From positions 1,638,894-1,702,893 of the forward strand of contig NZ_CP007446.1 of NCBI RefSeq assembly GCF_000600005.1: 64,000 bases of DNA, read 5' to 3'. The stretch comes from Snodgrassella alvi wkB2. GTDB taxonomy: Bacteria; Pseudomonadota; Gammaproteobacteria; Burkholderiales; Neisseriaceae. This document shows, one piece after another, positions 56,509 through 63,744 of this stretch. Position numbers and translations under genes: made by a program. Under the pieces are notes generated by a model. That model had not been told where the DNA came from and did not search any database. It was given only the letters and a program-made list of their open reading frames with translations. The stretch's first letter is position 1; every line of letters starts with the position of its first letter.

Positions 56509-59199
56509 TCAGAACCATTGTCCGAAACGGCGAATATACCAGCGTTTCACTATCTGAGTCACAACACAGTAACAACCCAGTGTCAGTACCAGCCAGGGGA
56601 AATATTGCCATGGCAGCGGTACCAGCCCGATCCAGCTGCTAATCGGCGAAAACGGAATATAAATACCAATAGCCATAATTAACCCTGTCATCAGCAATAC
56701 CGGTAAAGCAGCAGTACTTTGTACAAACGGTATTCTGCGGGTACGCAGCATATGTACTACCAGAGTCTGTGACAATAAACCTTCTACAAACCAGCCGGAA
56801 TGAAACAGATTCTGCACTTCCGGCGCATTAGCATGGAACACAAACCACATCAGCGCAAAAGTACTGATATCAAATATAGAGGAAATAGGACCGATAAACA
56901 GCATAAAACGGCTGATATTGGATACATCCCATTTACGCGGTTTACGCAAAAATTCCTCATCCATTTTATCCCACGGCAATGATAGCTGAGAAAAATCATA
57001 CAGAAGATTCTGAATCAGTAACTGAATAGCCAGCATAGGCAGAAACGGCAGGAACGCACTGGCAAACAATACTGAAAACACATTGCCAAAATTAGAGCTG
57101 GCAGTCATATTCAGATATTTAATAATATTGCCAAAGGTTTCACGTCCTTTGATTACCCCCTCTTCCAATACCATCAGACTTTTTTCCAGCAGAATAATAT
57201 CAGCCGATTCTTTGGCAATATCAGTAGCCGTATCCACAGAAATACCGACATCGGCATCGCGCAGAGCCGGAGCATCATTGATACCGTCACCAAGAAAACC
57301 GACTGTATGTCCGTTTTCCTGAAGCAGACGAATAATCCGTGATTTCTGTAATGGTGTTAGTTTGGCGAATACAGTATGTTTTTCCAGCAGAGGTTTCAGT
57401 ACCTCATCACTTAGAGCCTCAATTTCACTACCTAGTAAAGGCTGTCCGGCTTCAATTCCTACTTCATAACAAATCTTACGGGTAACAATCGCATTATCAC
57501 CAGTTAAAACCTTAACAGCCACACCATTTTCACTCAGCGCAGCAATAGCCTGTGCAGCACTGTCTTTCGGCGGATCAAGAAATGTCAGAAAGCCGAACAG
57601 AGTAAGCTCAGTTTCATCAGCAACTGCATATTGTTCTTTCTGGGCTTCAGCAGTAATGTATTTTTTACCAATCGCCAGTACCCGAAAGCCTTCCTTATTA
57701 TAGCTTTCAGCTAAAGCCAGCAATTGTTCCCGCCGCGCTGCATCTAATGGCAAATATTCTCCGTGCTCATAAACACGGCTGGAAATAGACAGCATTTCTT
57801 CCACTGCGCCCTTACAAATCAGCACATGGCGCTGTTCTTCATCCTGTAAAACCACAGATAAACGCCGGCGAATAAAATCAAACGGTAATTCATCAATTTT
57901 ATGATAACCACCATCGCTGATACCCGCCCTGTTTTCAGGCTCCTGTGCAAAACGCACAATGGCTTTATCCATCAGATTTTTCATACCGCTCTGATAGGAA
58001 CTGTTTAACCAGGCCAGTTGCAAAACTTCACTATCATTATTGCCATGAATATTCGTGTAATGCTCAAGAATAATTTTATCCTGAGTTAATGTACCGGTTT
58101 TATCTGTACATAAAATATCCATTGAACCGAAATTCTGAATAGCACTCAGGCGTTTTACCACTACCTTACGCCGTGCCATGGCCATAGCACCTTTAGCCAG
58201 ATTGGCACTGACAATCATGGGCAGCATCTCAGGAGTCAGCCCGACAGCAACAGCAAGTGCAAACAGGGCAGCATCACCCCAGTCCCCCTTAGTGAAGCCA
58301 TTAATCAGCAACACCACCGGTACCAGAACCAGCATAAAACGAATCAGCAGATGGCTTACACTGTTTACACCGCGATCAAACGCAGTCTGGCTGCGTGTAC
58401 CGACAATGGATTTGGCCAGAGAGCCAAAATAGGTATCATTTCCTGTTGCCACAACCACAGCTTTAGCCGTACCACTGACAATATTAGTACCCATAAAGCA
58501 GATGTTTTCTGCATCCAGCGGATCAGCTGATAATGGCTGCTCTTCAATAGCTAGCGAGCTATTCATACCAAGAGTATCAGATTTCTCTACCGGAATAGAC
58601 TCACCGGTCAGTACAGCCTGACTGATAAACAAATCACGTGATTCAATCAGACGCACATCAGCCGGTACCATATCGCCGGCAGATAACAAAATAATATCTC
58701 CCGGTACTACTTCTTTAATCGGTACTTCAAGCTGTTCTGCATTGATATCTCTATGGCTGCGGCGCACTACTGTGGCAGTGGTGCTGATCATAGATTTCAG
58801 CGCCTGTGCAGCTTTATTGGAACGATATTCCTGCCAGAAACTGAGTACACCACTGAGCAGAACCATTACCAGAATTATTGTAATACCGCTTACACTGGTT
58901 TCTTCGCCATTATGCAAAGGAATCAGATAATCAGTGAAAAAGCTTACCAAAGCCAGCGCCAGTAAAACAAAAATAAACGGATTTTTAAAGGCTAGTAATA
59001 ATTGCAGCCAGACTGATGGTGCTTTATCGTGCGCTACATCATTATTGCCAAAACTGATCAGTCTTTCTTTAACATCCTGCTCAGTCAGACCATTTAAACT
59101 GGTCTGTAAATTAGACAGCGTACGGTCAAGACTATTGCGGGACTCCAGCACAGCCTTGATTACTACTGGTTGAGAAATGATTTTTTTAAATTTTTTCAT
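56509..59199 (-). CDS. mgtA: Magnesium-importing P-type ATPase
   Basis: A P3B-type ATPase that imports Mg2+ across the inner membrane. The frame is open to ATG 59220 (MVGEVLF), but ATG 59199 (MKKFKKIIS) follows GGTGAGG with 8-nt spacing and is preferred, giving 896 residues like enteric MgtA. The N-terminal cation-transporter domain is followed by the actuator motif TGES (in VLTGESIPVEK). The P-domain DKTGTLT has the phosphorylated D366, and TGDNAIV and GDGINDAPAL follow. About ten membrane helices are present, including PEMLP in the fourth helix. A 255-nt leader with a small ORF and a hairpin precedes it (see below). Confidence 0.95.
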   Translation of the reverse strand: MKKFKKIISQPVVIKAVLESRNSLDRTLSNLQTSLNGLTEQDVKERLISFGNNDVAHDKAPSVWLQLLLAFKNPFIFVLLALALVSFFTDYLIPLHNGEETSVSGITIILVMVLLSGVLSFWQEYRSNKAAQALKSMISTTATVVRRSHRDINAEQLEVPIKEVVPGDIILLSAGDMVPADVRLIESRDLFISQAVLTGESIPVEKSDTLGMNSSLAIEEQPLSADPLDAENICFMGTNIVSGTAKAVVVATGNDTYFGSLAKSIVGTRSQTAFDRGVNSVSHLLIRFMLVLVPVVLLINGFTKGDWGDAALFALAVAVGLTPEMLPMIVSANLAKGAMAMARRKVVVKRLSAIQNFGSMDILCTDKTGTLTQDKIILEHYTNIHGNNDSEVLQLAWLNSSYQSGMKNLMDKAIVRFAQEPENRAGISDGGYHKIDELPFDFIRRRLSVVLQDEEQRHVLICKGAVEEMLSISSRVYEHGEYLPLDAARREQLLALAESYNKEGFRVLAIGKKYITAEAQKEQYAVADETELTLFGFLTFLDPPKDSAAQAIAALSENGVAVKVLTGDNAIVTRKICYEVGIEAGQPLLGSEIEALSDEVLKPLLEKHTVFAKLTPLQKSRIIRLLQENGHTVGFLGDGINDAPALRDADVGISVDTATDIAKESADIILLEKSLMVLEEGVIKGRETFGNIIKYLNMTASSNFGNVFSVLFASAFLPFLPMLAIQLLIQNLLYDFSQLSLPWDKMDEEFLRKPRKWDVSNISRFMLFIGPISSIFDISTFALMWFVFHANAPEVQNLFHSGWFVEGLLSQTLVVHMLRTRRIPFVQSTAALPVLLMTGLIMAIGIYIPFSPISSWIGLVPLPWQYFPWLVLTLGCYCVVTQIVKRWYIRRFGQWF

Positions 59200-59220
59200 A
59201 AACAGTACCTCACCGACCAT

Positions 59221-59261
59221 GATGTTTCCCAGTCGGCAGATACTGTTAACCCGGAAACATC
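59221..59261 (-). promoter_or_regulatory. Hairpin in the mgtA leader, overlapping the leader-ORF stop
   Basis: GATGTTTCC at 59221-59229 pairs perfectly with GGAAACATC at 59253-59261 (9 bp). The stem's 5' arm on the mRNA overlaps the stop codon of the leader ORF, and the hairpin ends 21 nt before the preferred mgtA start. CCGGGTTAA in the loop side can also pair, with one bulge, with TTAACCGG upstream of the leader ORF, so two alternative folds are possible. A ribosome on the leader ORF would decide between them. Confidence 0.6.
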
Positions 59262-59322
59262 AACGGCCTTGTTGCAGTTGTTGTTTTAATAAAATAAACG
59301 GTCGACTCGAATCTTCTTCCAT
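59260..59322 (-). CDS. Putative 20-residue mgtA leader peptide
   Basis: On the minus strand ATG 59322 starts a 20-codon ORF (MEEDSSRPFILLKQ... ending QQGR, TGA at 59260-59262), with GGGA 8 nt upstream. It opens with Glu-Glu-Asp and a proline at position 8. In enterics, MgtL (MEPDPTP...) has an acidic/proline N-terminus that destabilises ribosomes at low Mg2+ and raises mgtA read-through. The composition here is similar in character; the sequence is not homologous. It is too short for certainty, but its placement in the leader of mgtA is suggestive. Confidence 0.5.
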   Translation of the reverse strand: MEEDSSRPFILLKQQLQQGR

Positions 59323-59460
59323 TGTTTTATTCCCGGTTAAATAATCAGATACCTAATAAATAGAATTAAGCACACCTTACTGAAATAACAGCCTTCCCTT
59401 CTTTATTCCGTCTGAATAACTAAAAAATCTGAAAGACAGCAATATTTCAGCAAGATAGCG

Positions 59461-59489
59461 TTTATACATATTTGTGATGTCAGCGTCAA
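59461..59489 (-). promoter_or_regulatory. mgtA promoter
   Basis: On the minus strand TTGACG (plus 59484-59489), a 17-nt spacer and TATAAA (plus 59461-59466) form a strong promoter. Transcription near 59454 gives a leader of about 255 nt before 59199, similar to the long mgtA leaders of enterics. The rest of 59323-59639 is AT-rich and otherwise unremarkable. Confidence 0.7.
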
Positions 59490-59639
59490 TTATATTTACG
59501 CTATACAAAACAAAAAACAATATTATTCACAATATATAATATTAATAACAATAATACGCACATAAAACAGACAAATTTAAAAAATAAATTTACGCAGCAA
59601 AATAGCGGTTAAAATTATACTATTAGCATGATAATCAAA

Positions 59640-60713
59640 TTAGAAAAGACTGCTCTGTTTTACGTTCAGATAATCATATAACGGTTTAGGGATACCATAC
59701 GCATTCAGATTATCAGCTGATACCCACTCACTAGCAATTGCAGAAGATGCAGCATTCTGCCCGGTATTTATCTGAGCAGCAAAAGGCAGAATAAGCAATT
59801 GACGATGAGTTAAACGATGACTGAATTCAATACCTTCAGTTAAATCTTCAGCAGTACAACCAAACTTTGCAGCAAGTTTATACAAATCATCCAGACTGTC
59901 TGCACATGGTACACACCATAAACCACCCCATATTCCTTTGGCAGGACGTTTATGTAAAAATATCGCACCATCGCAGTTACGTAAAACCAGCCAATATAAC
60001 GATAAATTTTTTACACTTACAGCTTTTTTCTTACGCGGTAATTCAGCAATACGGTTCTGGGCATATGCCTGACACAGATCGTTCATTGGACATGAACAGC
60101 ATATTGGCTTACTGCGCTTACATACCGTTGCACCCAAATCCATCAGCCCCTGAATATAAGCCGGCATATCTACAGCATTAAGTGGCAGCAAAGCTTCTGC
60201 TTTGCGCCAGAGCTGATCTTCAAAAGCTTTATTCGCAATATCACCGTCCAGAGCAAAAACCCGGCACAATACCCGCTTTACATTACCATCCAGAATGGTT
60301 TCGCGTGCATCAAAGCAAAATGCAGCAATCGCTGCTGCCGTACTGCGACCTACACCACATAAAGATTGTAATTCCACACGACTGTGTGGAAAATTTCCCG
60401 AAAATTCAGATATAACTTGCCTGGCAGCCTTATGCAAATTGCGTGCACGACTGTAGTAGCCCAGCCCTTGCCACAAACCCAGCACTTCATCTTCATCAGC
60501 CGCCGCCAGTGCTCGGACATCAGGAAATGCAGCCAGAAAGCGCGGATAATAATCAAGTACCGTGGACACCTGCGTTTGCTGCAACATAATTTCCGATAAC
60601 CATACCTTATATGGTTCACGACACTGCCATGGCAGACCATGCCGGCCATGCTGACGCTGCCAGCTTACCAGGCGAGGAGCAAACTCCGCTTCCTGCACTG
60701 CTTGTTTATTCAT
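59640..60713 (-). CDS. mutY: A/G-specific adenine DNA glycosylase
   Basis: MutY removes adenine mispaired with 8-oxoguanine. It has 357 residues. The catalytic E41 is in SEIMLQQTQ, the HhH motif LQSLCGVGRSTAAAI is at about 116-130, and D142 is in LDGNVKRVL. The [4Fe-4S] cluster ligands C198, C205, C208 and C214 follow the C-x6-C-x2-C-x5-C pattern. The C-terminal NUDIX-like domain (about 235-350; GAIFLHKRPAKGIWGGLWCVP) recognises 8-oxoG. GGGTG precedes the start. Monocistronic. Confidence 0.97.
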   Translation of the reverse strand: MNKQAVQEAEFAPRLVSWQRQHGRHGLPWQCREPYKVWLSEIMLQQTQVSTVLDYYPRFLAAFPDVRALAAADEDEVLGLWQGLGYYSRARNLHKAARQVISEFSGNFPHSRVELQSLCGVGRSTAAAIAAFCFDARETILDGNVKRVLCRVFALDGDIANKAFEDQLWRKAEALLPLNAVDMPAYIQGLMDLGATVCKRSKPICCSCPMNDLCQAYAQNRIAELPRKKKAVSVKNLSLYWLVLRNCDGAIFLHKRPAKGIWGGLWCVPCADSLDDLYKLAAKFGCTAEDLTEGIEFSHRLTHRQLLILPFAAQINTGQNAASSAIASEWVSADNLNAYGIPKPLYDYLNVKQSSLF

Positions 60714-60983
60714 AACACCCTAATTTAACATAAAAAAATCATGATCAGCCTGAATAATTCAGGTAATAAACTAATATGGGTGATTATAGACATAAAACAA
60801 GAATCTGCTTTAGAAAAGCAAAATTATTTCATAAGCATAAACAGAAAAATATTATCAATAGGGTTAAATTTCATGATATAAAATTTAAATAATAGTGACT
60901 ACTTATTAAAATCTACTGTAAAAAAATTTCAGAATTCATAGTTTTAAAATGAAAAAATAATATCCATGATAACCAATATGGTT

Positions 60984-62378
60984 TTATTTCAATTGATTGT
61001 ATATTTCACATGCTTCCTGATTACCATTTTTACAGCTCTTACCGAATAATTCTTTAGCTATCCGTTTATTTTGTTTGACACCGGTACCATTCAAAAACAT
61101 ATAGGCCAGATTATACTGAGCATCTGCATTTTCCTGTTTAGCCGCCAGCTGATAATATCTGGCTGCTTTTGCAAAGTCCTGTTTCACTCCTTCACCATTC
61201 TCATACATATTAGCTAAGCTATTTTGTGAGAACGAATCTCCCTGGTCGGCAGCCAATTGGTAGTATTTTAATGATTTTATATAATCTTGTTTAACACCCT
61301 CTCCCTCACTATACAAATACCCCAAATGAGCCTGAGCACCAATTTTTCCCTGATCTGCCGCTAATTGAAAATATTTGACAGCCTCTTCATAATTCTGTTC
61401 TATCTCTGTACCTTTGAAATACATTAATCCCATATTATATTGTGCAGCTGCCAATCCCTTTTTAGCAGCAAGACGATAACACTGAGCAGCTCTCTGATAA
61501 TCTTGTTCAATACCCTTACCATTAAACAGCATCAGCCCTAAATTATAGATAGCGTAAGAATACCCTTTTTTGGCTGCCAGTTTATAATATTTAACTGATT
61601 TAGAATAATCAGCCGGGACAATCTGACCAAACTCATAAATTACGCCCAGATTATATTGTGCAATTGCATTACCCTGATCAGCCGCTAATTTATAATATTT
61701 AATAGCTTCGGTATCATTTTGTTCAATACCACCATAGCCATATCTGTAATATGCACCAAGATTAAATAGTGCTTCCGGACTATTCTTTAAAGCTGCAATA
61801 TGAAAGTACTTTAAGGCTTGTTTGTGATTCTGTTTGACGCCTGAACCTTCGCTATACATCATACCCAGATTAGTCAGAGCATCGGCATGTCCTTGTTTAG
61901 CAGCCAGTTGATAATACTTAAATGCCTGCGCAAAATTTTGTTCTACCCCTATACCATTATAGTAAACATATCCTAAATGAAACTGTGCATTTATATTTCC
62001 TCTATCAGAGGCTAGCTGATAATAATATATAGCTTTATCATAATCCTGCTGAAGACTATTACCTTTTTCATACATGTTTGCCAGACTGAGCAAAGCATCT
62101 TCATTCCCTTGTTCAGCAGATAACCGGCAATAATAAAATGCCTTTGTAAAATCCTGTTTTACTCCTTCTCCATAGTAATACATCACGCCTAAATTATATT
62201 GAGCACCACTATCACCTTGTTCAGATGCTAACTTAAAATAGTTAAAAGCATTAATATAATTCTGCTCAACGCCTGCACCCTTGTAATACATTAATCCAAT
62301 AGTAAATTGGGCATTAACATCTCCTTTTTTTGCAGCTTCCAGAACACATAAAAAATTATCTGAACTTTTTGTTTCCAT
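60984..62378 (-). CDS. Sel1-like repeat protein, 464 residues
   Basis: About twelve Sel1-like (TPR-related) repeats of 36 residues, each with the pattern A-x-Y-x-L-G-x-M-Y-x-x-G-x-G-V-x-Q-x-Y-x-x-A. No signal peptide or membrane segment is seen, so it is predicted cytosolic or secreted by a non-classical route. The C-terminal capping segment IAKELFGKSCKNGNQEACEIYNQ has two Cys. Sel1 proteins scaffold protein-protein interactions; in bacteria some modulate host contact or act as immunity proteins. First (from the left) of at least three tandem genes read on the minus strand. Confidence 0.9.
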   Translation of the reverse strand: METKSSDNFLCVLEAAKKGDVNAQFTIGLMYYKGAGVEQNYINAFNYFKLASEQGDSGAQYNLGVMYYYGEGVKQDFTKAFYYCRLSAEQGNEDALLSLANMYEKGNSLQQDYDKAIYYYQLASDRGNINAQFHLGYVYYNGIGVEQNFAQAFKYYQLAAKQGHADALTNLGMMYSEGSGVKQNHKQALKYFHIAALKNSPEALFNLGAYYRYGYGGIEQNDTEAIKYYKLAADQGNAIAQYNLGVIYEFGQIVPADYSKSVKYYKLAAKKGYSYAIYNLGLMLFNGKGIEQDYQRAAQCYRLAAKKGLAAAQYNMGLMYFKGTEIEQNYEEAVKYFQLAADQGKIGAQAHLGYLYSEGEGVKQDYIKSLKYYQLAADQGDSFSQNSLANMYENGEGVKQDFAKAARYYQLAAKQENADAQYNLAYMFLNGTGVKQNKRIAKELFGKSCKNGNQEACEIYNQLK

Positions 62379-62555
62379 CTTCTTATTATTCCTTTTACAG
62401 TAAGCTTTTAAACTTTTTCAGAATATTTTTATCTGCAAATATAAACAACCTCAACCATAGAGATCAATAATAAAAAAGTTATATAGCATTCAGACATCAT
62501 CAAAGATTTTTGTACTACTTTTTTATAAATTTTCTGAAAATACTTTTATTTCTTT
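62367..62555. repeat. Recently duplicated intergenic block, copy 1 (other copy 63733-63920)
   Basis: From the first Met codons of each Sel1 gene through the intergenic DNA into the 3' end of the next gene, 62367-62555 and 63733-63920 are nearly identical by eye, including TCCATCTTCTTATTATTCCT and AGAGATCAATAATAAAAAAG. Only a few substitutions and a T-run length difference are seen. It marks a recent tandem gene duplication. Confidence 0.85.
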
Positions 62556-63744
62556 ATTCCAAAACCATTTTCTTCATAAGCTCCAGATTATGCTGAGCTC
62601 CAGAGTGTCCTTGTTCTGCCGCCAGATTAAAGTACTCATATGCCTCTGCATAATTTTGCTCTGCTCCTTCACCATTTATATACATAAAACCCAGAGCAAA
62701 TTGTGCATCACTATTTCCTTGTTCCGCAGCTGGCTTATAATATTCAAGACTTTTAATGAAGCTTTGTTCTACACCTTTACCATAATAATACATACTACCT
62801 GCATAATATTGAGCAATAGGATTCCCTTGCTCAGCGGCAGCTAGATAATACTCAAATGCTTTTGCATAATTCTGTTCTACACCATCACCGTTTTCATATA
62901 AAATACCTAAATTAATTTGTGCATCACTATTTCCCTGTTCTGCAGCCAGCTTATAATATTTATATGCCTCCGCATAATCCTGAGCAACACCTTCACCAGT
63001 TTTATAAATATATCCTAAAGTAAATTGTGCCTTACTATTACCCTGTTGCGCTGCTAACTGATAGTATTCAATACTTTTAGTATAATTTTGTTCTACGCCT
63101 TTTCCATAGTAATATAAATTAGCTAAGTTATACTGGGCAGTAACATCTCCTTGCGCAGCTGCAGCTGAATAATACTCAACCGCCTTTTCATAATTTTGCT
63201 CTACACCATAGCCGTTGTAATATAAAAATCCTAATTTACTTTGGGCAATATCAACTCCCTGTGCAGCTGCAGCCAAATAATACTCAGCTGCCTTTTCATA
63301 ATTCTGCTCTACACCATAACCATCTTCATACAATATACCTAAATTACTCTGAGCATTTGCATTTCCCTGTGCAGCTGCAGCTGAATAATACTTAGCTGCC
63401 TTTTCATAATTCTGCTCTACACCATAACCATCACTATACAATATACCCAGATTACATTGAGCGGCTGCATCCCCCTGTGCAGCTGCAGCCGCATAATATT
63501 CAGCTGCCTTTTCATAATTCTGCTCTACGCCATAGCCCTCGCTATACAATAAACCTAAATTGAATTGTGCATCGATATTTCCCTGTTCGGCAGCCAATTT
63601 ATAGTATTTATATGCTTCTACATAATTTTGCTCTGTTCCTTCTCCATCCTCATACATAACACCCAGAGCAAATTGTGCATCCGCATTCCCCTTTCGAGCC
63701 GCTTCCAGAGTATTTAAAAATTTATCTGATTTCTTCGTTTCCAT
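62554..63744 (-). CDS. Sel1-like repeat protein, 396 residues
   Basis: A close relative of the 60984 protein with about ten Sel1 repeats; starts METKKSDKFLNTLEAARKG, and the neighbour starts METKSSDNFLCVLEAAKKG. Middle repeats are highly alike (AQGDAAAQCNLGILYSDGYG and AQGNANAQSNLGILYEDGYG). It has no signal peptide. The last codons read LELMKKMVLE, where the homologous end at 63913 reads LELMQENGFGIKK; a missing base near 62574 explains the difference. Function unknown. Confidence 0.9.
   Translation of the reverse strand: METKKSDKFLNTLEAARKGNADAQFALGVMYEDGEGTEQNYVEAYKYYKLAAEQGNIDAQFNLGLLYSEGYGVEQNYEKAAEYYAAAAAQGDAAAQCNLGILYSDGYGVEQNYEKAAKYYSAAAAQGNANAQSNLGILYEDGYGVEQNYEKAAEYYLAAAAQGVDIAQSKLGFLYYNGYGVEQNYEKAVEYYSAAAAQGDVTAQYNLANLYYYGKGVEQNYTKSIEYYQLAAQQGNSKAQFTLGYIYKTGEGVAQDYAEAYKYYKLAAEQGNSDAQINLGILYENGDGVEQNYAKAFEYYLAAAEQGNPIAQYYAGSMYYYGKGVEQSFIKSLEYYKPAAEQGNSDAQFALGFMYINGEGAEQNYAEAYEYFNLAAEQGHSGAQHNLELMKKMVLE

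Follow-up and report, generated by a model that had tools for sequence, protein, structure and literature searches.

Leader and pump gene in Snodgrassella alvi wkB2

In the window analysed here, a 64,000-nucleotide (nt) stretch of Snodgrassella alvi wkB2 DNA (NZ_CP007446.1, 1,638,894-1,702,893, forward strand; all coordinates below are window positions), mutY (60713-59640) on the minus strand is followed by a promoter and then by a leader of some 255 nt, which holds an open reading frame (ORF) of 20 codons and leads into the gene for a Mg2+ pump. The pump gene (56509-59199) encodes a Mg2+-translocating P-type ATPase of the MgtB type by NCBIfam, with 896 amino acids from the ATG at 59199 and the Shine-Dalgarno sequence GGTGAGG (59208-59214) 8 nt ahead of that codon. 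Judged by its conservation, the leader is a real conserved regulatory leader, and the most likely reading is that of an mgtQ-type switch, here in a new lineage and a new setting. All features of the locus described below lie on the minus strand.

The promoter (59461-59489), read from the sequence and its alignment, consists of TTGACG (59489-59484), a 17-nt spacer and TATAAA (59466-59461). From its position the RNA is expected to start near 59454, which gives the leader length of about 255 nt, and both hexamers are found in all 14 rows of the leader alignment A1, 3 of which apparently duplicate other rows. The strong promoter and long leader described in an earlier, sequence-only reading of this DNA (the first-pass annotation) are thereby borne out. 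A simple promoter scan of the region did not include TTGACG-17-TATAAA among its predictions, because that scan accepts only -10 hexamers ending in T. An inverted repeat, AGCGT-N11-ACGCT (59482-59502), overlaps the -35 hexamer and is possibly a repressor site; it is present in the window and in two other leaders (L007 and L008), has both arms altered in a further two (AACGT/ACGTT in L009 and L010), and is not conserved in the remaining Snodgrassella leaders.

The leader ORF, MEEDSSRPFILLKQQLQQGR, occupies 59260-59322, from an ATG at 59322 to a TGA at 59262-59260, with GGGA 8 nt ahead of the ATG. It is the 20-codon frame beginning MEEDSSRP that had been noticed at first pass, and its start and the residues MEEDSS are retained at the loci of 11 of 11 species, so that Glu2, Glu3 and Asp4 place acidic codons within the first five throughout. 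Variation in the ORF comprises a change of Arg7 to Leu in one species and variable codons 13, 14 and 18. Mean column identity is 95% from the leader ribosome site to the pump start, and 72% in a longer alignment that reaches the DNA upstream of the promoter. The leader was found in 11 of 14 Snodgrassella genomes, and the same 11 carry the pump gene; leader and pump are both absent from the other 3, one of which is only 60% complete, while the other two (G011 and G012) are 99% complete.

Alternative pairings in the leader

The conserved hairpin that overlaps the leader stop codon, hairpin B (59221-59261; 2:3, the putative anti-sequestrator), pairs GATGTTTCC (59261-59253) with GGAAACATC (59229-59221), and is present just as the first-pass annotation described it, with 9 base pairs. 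It can be extended by GGCCGT (59268-59263) pairing with ATGGTC (59220-59215). In pairing C, stem segment 1, TTAACCGGGAA (59330-59340), which includes the leader Shine-Dalgarno GGGA (59334-59331), pairs with segment 2, TTTCCGGGTTAA (59246-59257), leaving one bulged G; this contact between the ribosome-site region of the ORF and the hairpin had likewise been seen before. Hairpin A (59201-59247; 3:4, the putative sequestrator), which was missing from the earlier account, is supported by predicted pairing and conservation and joins AACAGTA (59247-59241) to TACTGTT (59207-59201) and TGCCGAC (59238-59232) to GTCGGTG (59217-59211), caging the Shine-Dalgarno of the pump gene. The ORF, the stems, their mutual exclusivity, their conservation and their predicted folding are established in this analysis, and the earlier suggestion of mutually exclusive pairings behind an acidic ORF ahead of a Mg2+ ATPase, with translation as the likely output, is supported and holds across the genus.

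Among the 10 distinct rows of the alignment, pairing C retains its 11 pairs in 100% of cells, hairpin A is paired in 98.5% of cells and hairpin B in 96.0%, each with one pair altered on both sides; when the three are slid by 1-3 columns, pairing drops to 66.3% of cells or less. Two further hairpins, also new to this analysis, lie 5' of the ORF. P1 (59378-59452; RNAalifold), at the 5' end of the leader, pairs TGCTGAAAT (59452-59444) with ATTTCAGTA (59386-59378) in 96.0% of cells, with no pair altered on both sides. P2 (59349-59373), just upstream of the leader ribosome site, varies in sequence and retains its pairing: 3 of its 10 pairs are altered on both sides and 97.3% of cells are paired. 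Jointly, P1 and P2 are paired in 96.7% of cells (11 rows), with a covariation score that none of 500 shuffles reached, and P2 is, on this alignment, the RNA element with the strongest support in the leader.

In terms of folding stability, parts A and B each beat all 500 shuffles in three of the five species tested; in the other two, the shuffles matching the natural stability numbered 1 of 500 for B and 0 of 500 for A (L009), and 5 of 500 for B and 37 of 500 for A (L007). Taken alone, A and B are less than 6 kcal/mol apart in all 11 species, and in the full-length RNA without a ribosome A is dominant in 11 of 11. In an RNA that ends ahead of the 3' arm of A, a ribosome placed at codon 1 or 2 gives a pB of at least 0.85, and one placed at codon 20 or at the stop gives a pB of 0.00, in each case in 11 of 11 species. 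When the pump Shine-Dalgarno was folded in a 70-nt context, its pairing exceeded 0.5 in 68 of 95 leaders, with a mean folding z of -1.5; the value for the window is only 0.35, and B wins in that context.

MgtB-type pumps and their leaders in other Proteobacteria

The comparison beyond Snodgrassella drew on 152 of 175 loci, all distinct and with 250 nt or more of upstream sequence; those dropped were duplicates, loci with a shorter upstream stretch and matches without a pump start. The window pump scores 1601 bits against NCBIfam PRK15122 (NF011702; cut-off 975), a model that we take to be built around Salmonella MgtB, and 1393 bits against TIGR01524. Among the 6 other pumps compared with NCBIfam, five members of the same clade, from genus g6 (same family), Gilliamella, Entomohabitans, P. 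aeruginosa and Serratia, score 1642-1746 bits with PRK15122; L015, a pump of the other clade, reaches 1267 bits, likewise above the cut-off of 975, and is better fitted by TIGR01524. A FastTree of 149 pumps, built after omitting 3 of the 152 loci as too divergent or too short, places 95 in one clade with support 100, which comprises Snodgrassella, Gilliamella, Enterobacterales, g6, Rhizobiales, Pseudomonas and Alcaligenes, and the pumps with MgtL-like leaders fall in the other clade. The PRK15122 score and the tree together assign the window pump to the mgtQ-associated, MgtB-type clade. The name mgtA given to the gene at first pass was therefore right as to a Mg2+ ATPase, but not as to the type of pump.

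Upstream of these pumps, ATG ORFs of 8-60 codons were collected and counted as acidic when two or more of codons 2-4 encode acidic residues. Of those preceded by a Shine-Dalgarno, 48 of 120 are acidic in the upstream region. The opposite strand gave 0 of 59, and a region lying farther from the pump 3 of 46 (148 loci); the corresponding counts for ORFs lacking a Shine-Dalgarno are 9/343, 5/436 and 6/442. The 48 acidic ORFs belong to 41 of the 95 loci of the MgtB-type clade and to 7 of the 57 other loci, and those 7 read M[DE]PDP[TS]P, resembling MgtL. Within the MgtB-type clade, acidic leader ORFs accompany the pump in Pseudomonas, Rhizobiales, g6 and Enterobacterales, with N termini similar to that of Snodgrassella, such as MEEASSRF, MDEPPSRP, MDDYPSRP, MDDDPSRS, MDDDPRPL and MDEHPR. 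The pattern M[DE][DE] followed by SR or RR recurs in distant genera with different codons, and only the first residues align among 13 leader peptides. The first-pass annotation had thought the Snodgrassella leader unrelated in sequence to that of enterics and perhaps convergent; this view is rejected, given that acidic leaders of similar pattern stand ahead of pump genes of this clade in other Proteobacteria. Because the leader ORF belongs to a set that accompanies the MgtB-type clade, independent convergence is not the simplest reading.

A two-tier cage encloses the pump Shine-Dalgarno in all 8 distinct Snodgrassella sequences (shuffle expectation 2.4). Pseudomonas, Rhizobiales and g6 together show it in 35 of their 43 distinct sequences (expected 11.1), with both g6 sequences lacking it. 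It was found in none of 27 sequences from Enterobacterales and Alcaligenes (expected 3.1) and in none of 7 from Gilliamella (expected 0.5). Since the cage rule was written after inspection and the sequences are related, these counts are descriptive. A motif AAACCGA(T/C)CG between leader and pump, which by eye is perhaps the start of another hairpin, occurs in L074, L077, L085, L067, L076 and L093; its carriers are Pseudomonas, Phyllobacterium and some Enterobacterales in which the acidic ORF was not found. Our literature search found no description of the leaders that precede MgtB-type pump genes in Pseudomonas and Rhizobiales, nor of the own leader of P. aeruginosa mgtA; one report describes the Salmonella leader in use as a sensor in P. 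aeruginosa (PMC11218974).

Transfer of pump and leader together from Gilliamella, the gammaproteobacterial bee-gut partner of Snodgrassella (L033-L041 and L066), was considered and rejected, as no acidic leader ORF was found in 10 of 10 Gilliamella loci. The tree does not fix the order of the deep branches in the MgtB-type clade.

As to the genetic setting, an MgtC-family gene lies directly upstream of a Serratia pump (L065; hidden Markov model match), and a similar-looking MgtC-like gene, recognized by eye, lies upstream in L068, L062, L049 and L164. The gene upstream of the window pump is mutY. The MgtC family had no match in 14 of 14 Snodgrassella genomes, and no PhoQ sensor domain was found in the genome of the window. 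CorA was found in 12 of the 14 genomes and ribosomal protein L31 is encoded in all 14; the pump is therefore probably an accessory importer for low Mg2+. Upstream of mutY lie two adjacent proteins of many short repeats, alike in sequence (60984-62378 and 62554-63744), which we take to be Sel1-like; an NCBIfam search with the first of them (60984-62378) gave matches that were all below cut-off.

Proposed switch, its alternatives and known systems

We think it reasonably probable that the leader works as an mgtQ-type translational switch for the MgtB-type Mg2+ importer. We infer that the leader ORF is translated, that ribosomes drop off at its acidic codons and that this depends on Mg2+, with the direction of response as follows. 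Hairpin A (3:4) would hide the pump Shine-Dalgarno, and hairpin B (2:3) would take away the 5' half of A and so free it. At high Mg2+, ribosomes would pass acidic codons 2-4, reach the stop codon and cover the 5' arm of B, so that A forms and pump translation is off. At low Mg2+, they would stall or drop off at Glu2-Glu3-Asp4, keeping open segment 1, the leader ribosome site otherwise held in C, and never reaching B, so that B forms and the pump is produced. As the leader's own ribosome site lies in segment 1, it would seem that occupation at or near initiation, beside codons 2-4, holds the switch open. The folding results suggest that a terminating ribosome is a robust off signal, and that, for the on state, either a ribosome must sit right at the beginning of the ORF or the order of folding must decide.

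Several observations weigh against this reading. The RNA that ends ahead of the 3' arm of A forms B even without a ribosome in 10 of 11 species, which makes the role of C uncertain. When the full-length RNA is folded to equilibrium with codon 1 occupied by a ribosome, B rises above 0.5 in only 6 of 11 species (the window strain, L003, L004, L005, L007 and L008), the other 5 staying at 0.07 or less; the unpaired fraction of the pump Shine-Dalgarno rises from 16% to 40% in the window strain, with a small gain or none in other species. With the ribosome at codon 3, 4, 5 or 10 of the full-length RNA, A reaches at least 0.90 in all 11 species; a stall past codon 2 would thus favour B only if folding order decides. 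Hairpin B has one A-G mismatch in 6 of the 10 distinct rows. The covariation scores were matched by 43 (A), 52 (B) and 114 (C) of 500 shuffles, too slender a basis for a firm statistical statement. Of the conservation that the first-pass annotation had proposed as a check among relatives, the ORF start and acidic N terminus stand within Snodgrassella and P2 covaries, but the covariation of A, B and C is thin. Gilliamella, which has the most similar pumps (73-74%), shows an acidic ORF in none of its 10 loci and the cage in none of its 7 distinct sequences. Finally, in one Pseudomonas subgroup (11 rows) the ORF reads MN-x-SSSS and has lost the acidic residues. L073, L074, L077, L080 and other Pseudomonas loci have this form in place of MDEASSS, with the serine run retained; their MN-x-SSSS ORFs lie roughly 250 nt ahead of the pump's conserved portion and offer a natural test of the acidic-codon model.

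The leader might instead control transcription in the manner of MgtL, with finished leader translation exposing a Rho site, termination at high Mg2+ and hairpins that only serve that end. Like MgtL, the acidic leader ORF ahead of mgtA in E. coli and Salmonella (PMC11282234, PMC11552253), the ORF in Snodgrassella opens with acidic residues ahead of a Mg2+ P-type ATPase. Yet it lacks the alternating acidic/Pro pattern, the leader is C-poor (14.5% C and 22.7% G, with C exceeding G by at most 2 in any 80 nt), the pump lies outside the clade of the MgtL-bearing pumps, and its Shine-Dalgarno is directly caged by a hairpin, which suggests translational output. Rfam Magnesium-II (RF01056) gave no match at 58000-61000 up to E = 1, nor in L002, whereas L152, which carries an MgtL-like ORF, matches it at 120.5 bits. 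Such control seems unlikely here, and MgtL, which the first-pass annotation took as the nearest model, gives way to mgtQ, whose alternative-stem logic (PMC8092293) the present leader appears to share.

Direct binding of Mg2+ or some other ligand to the leader RNA, with an ORF that is incidental or merely sets ribosome loading, is likewise improbable. The leader is strongly structured and P2 clearly covaries, as such an RNA would lead one to expect, but an incidental ORF would not explain a peptide N terminus that recurs in distant genera with different codons, a pattern that speaks for the peptide and not for RNA alone. A riboswitch of known family was rejected, as no Rfam riboswitch family matched 58000-61000 up to E = 1, where the sole match was a weak snoRNA hit inside mutY. 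The polarity of the switch would be reversed, with B as the off and A as the on state, if the pump started at a second ATG at 59220, which is upstream of that at 59199 and has its GGGA in hairpin B. This ATG is in frame, is kept in 11 of 11 species and has its GGGA 6 nt upstream; the ATG at 59199, on the other hand, has the better Shine-Dalgarno, with an AGG core ahead of it in 11 of 11, and yields an N-terminal length close, by eye, to that of the Gilliamella pump L033, so we hold a start at 59220 to be very improbable.

A broader proposal, which we make tentatively and regard as somewhat doubtful, is that an acidic, ribosome-destabilizing ORF combined with a hairpin hiding the Shine-Dalgarno is an old and widespread control of MgtB-type pumps across the alpha-, beta- and gammaproteobacteria, and that it may serve as the main cellular Mg2+ sensor, through ribosome stability alone, where no PhoQ sensor domain is found, as in Snodgrassella. 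If so, Mg2+ sensing through ribosome instability would be a general companion of one pump clade and not an enteric speciality tied to PhoPQ. Snodgrassella, Pseudomonas and Rhizobiales form a ready test set, with natural variants, among them one group that has lost the acidic residues and another that lacks the ORF. The first-pass annotation knew of no neisserial counterpart, and our literature search, which reached few subscription papers and so does not establish absence in print, found neither one nor any mention of Snodgrassella with mgtA, and a single paper that names mgtQ.

In Pseudomonas and Rhizobiales, the leaders ahead of MgtB-type pump genes resemble that of Snodgrassella in the M[DE][DE] start of the ORF, in SR or RR soon after it and in the two-tier Shine-Dalgarno cage, and differ in stem sequences and in ORF length, which is 12 or 43-46 codons among those found. 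For mgtQ, the comparison rests on Choi et al. 2021 (PMC8092293). There, mgtQ is a translation-aborting ORF of 8 codons, with Asp2 and Glu5, ahead of Salmonella mgtB. Its RNA forms either stem 2:3 or the pair of stems 1:2 and 3:4, of which 3:4 conceals the ribosome site of mgtB, and mgtB translation was found experimentally to require the acidic codons and the mgtQ start codon. The L31 of rpmE1 opposes the effect of mgtQ and that of rpmE2 acts oppositely; relatives are described in Erwinia, Yersinia and Serratia, as is an ORF resembling mgtQ ahead of Brucella mgtB, which there precedes mgtC. Measured against that description, the Snodgrassella leader differs in its longer ORF (20 codons versus 8), in a segment 1 that covers the leader's own Shine-Dalgarno instead of codons, in the extra conserved hairpins P1 and P2, and in its genomic setting, with no MgtC match in any of the 14 genomes and no PhoQ sensor domain found in that of the window. 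Its ORF also lies in a 5' leader and not between mgtC and mgtB, a position that we do not treat as defining because the mgtQ-like ORF of Brucella precedes mgtB upstream of mgtC. In both systems, a short ORF with its own Shine-Dalgarno and acidic codons at its start stands ahead of an mgtB-type gene of the same pump clade, the output is likely translational, and the stems appear to correspond, C to 1:2, A to 3:4, with the pump ribosome site hidden, and B to 2:3, with the site free. By this analogy, the closest known device is Salmonella mgtQ, and not MgtL with its Rho-dependent termination.

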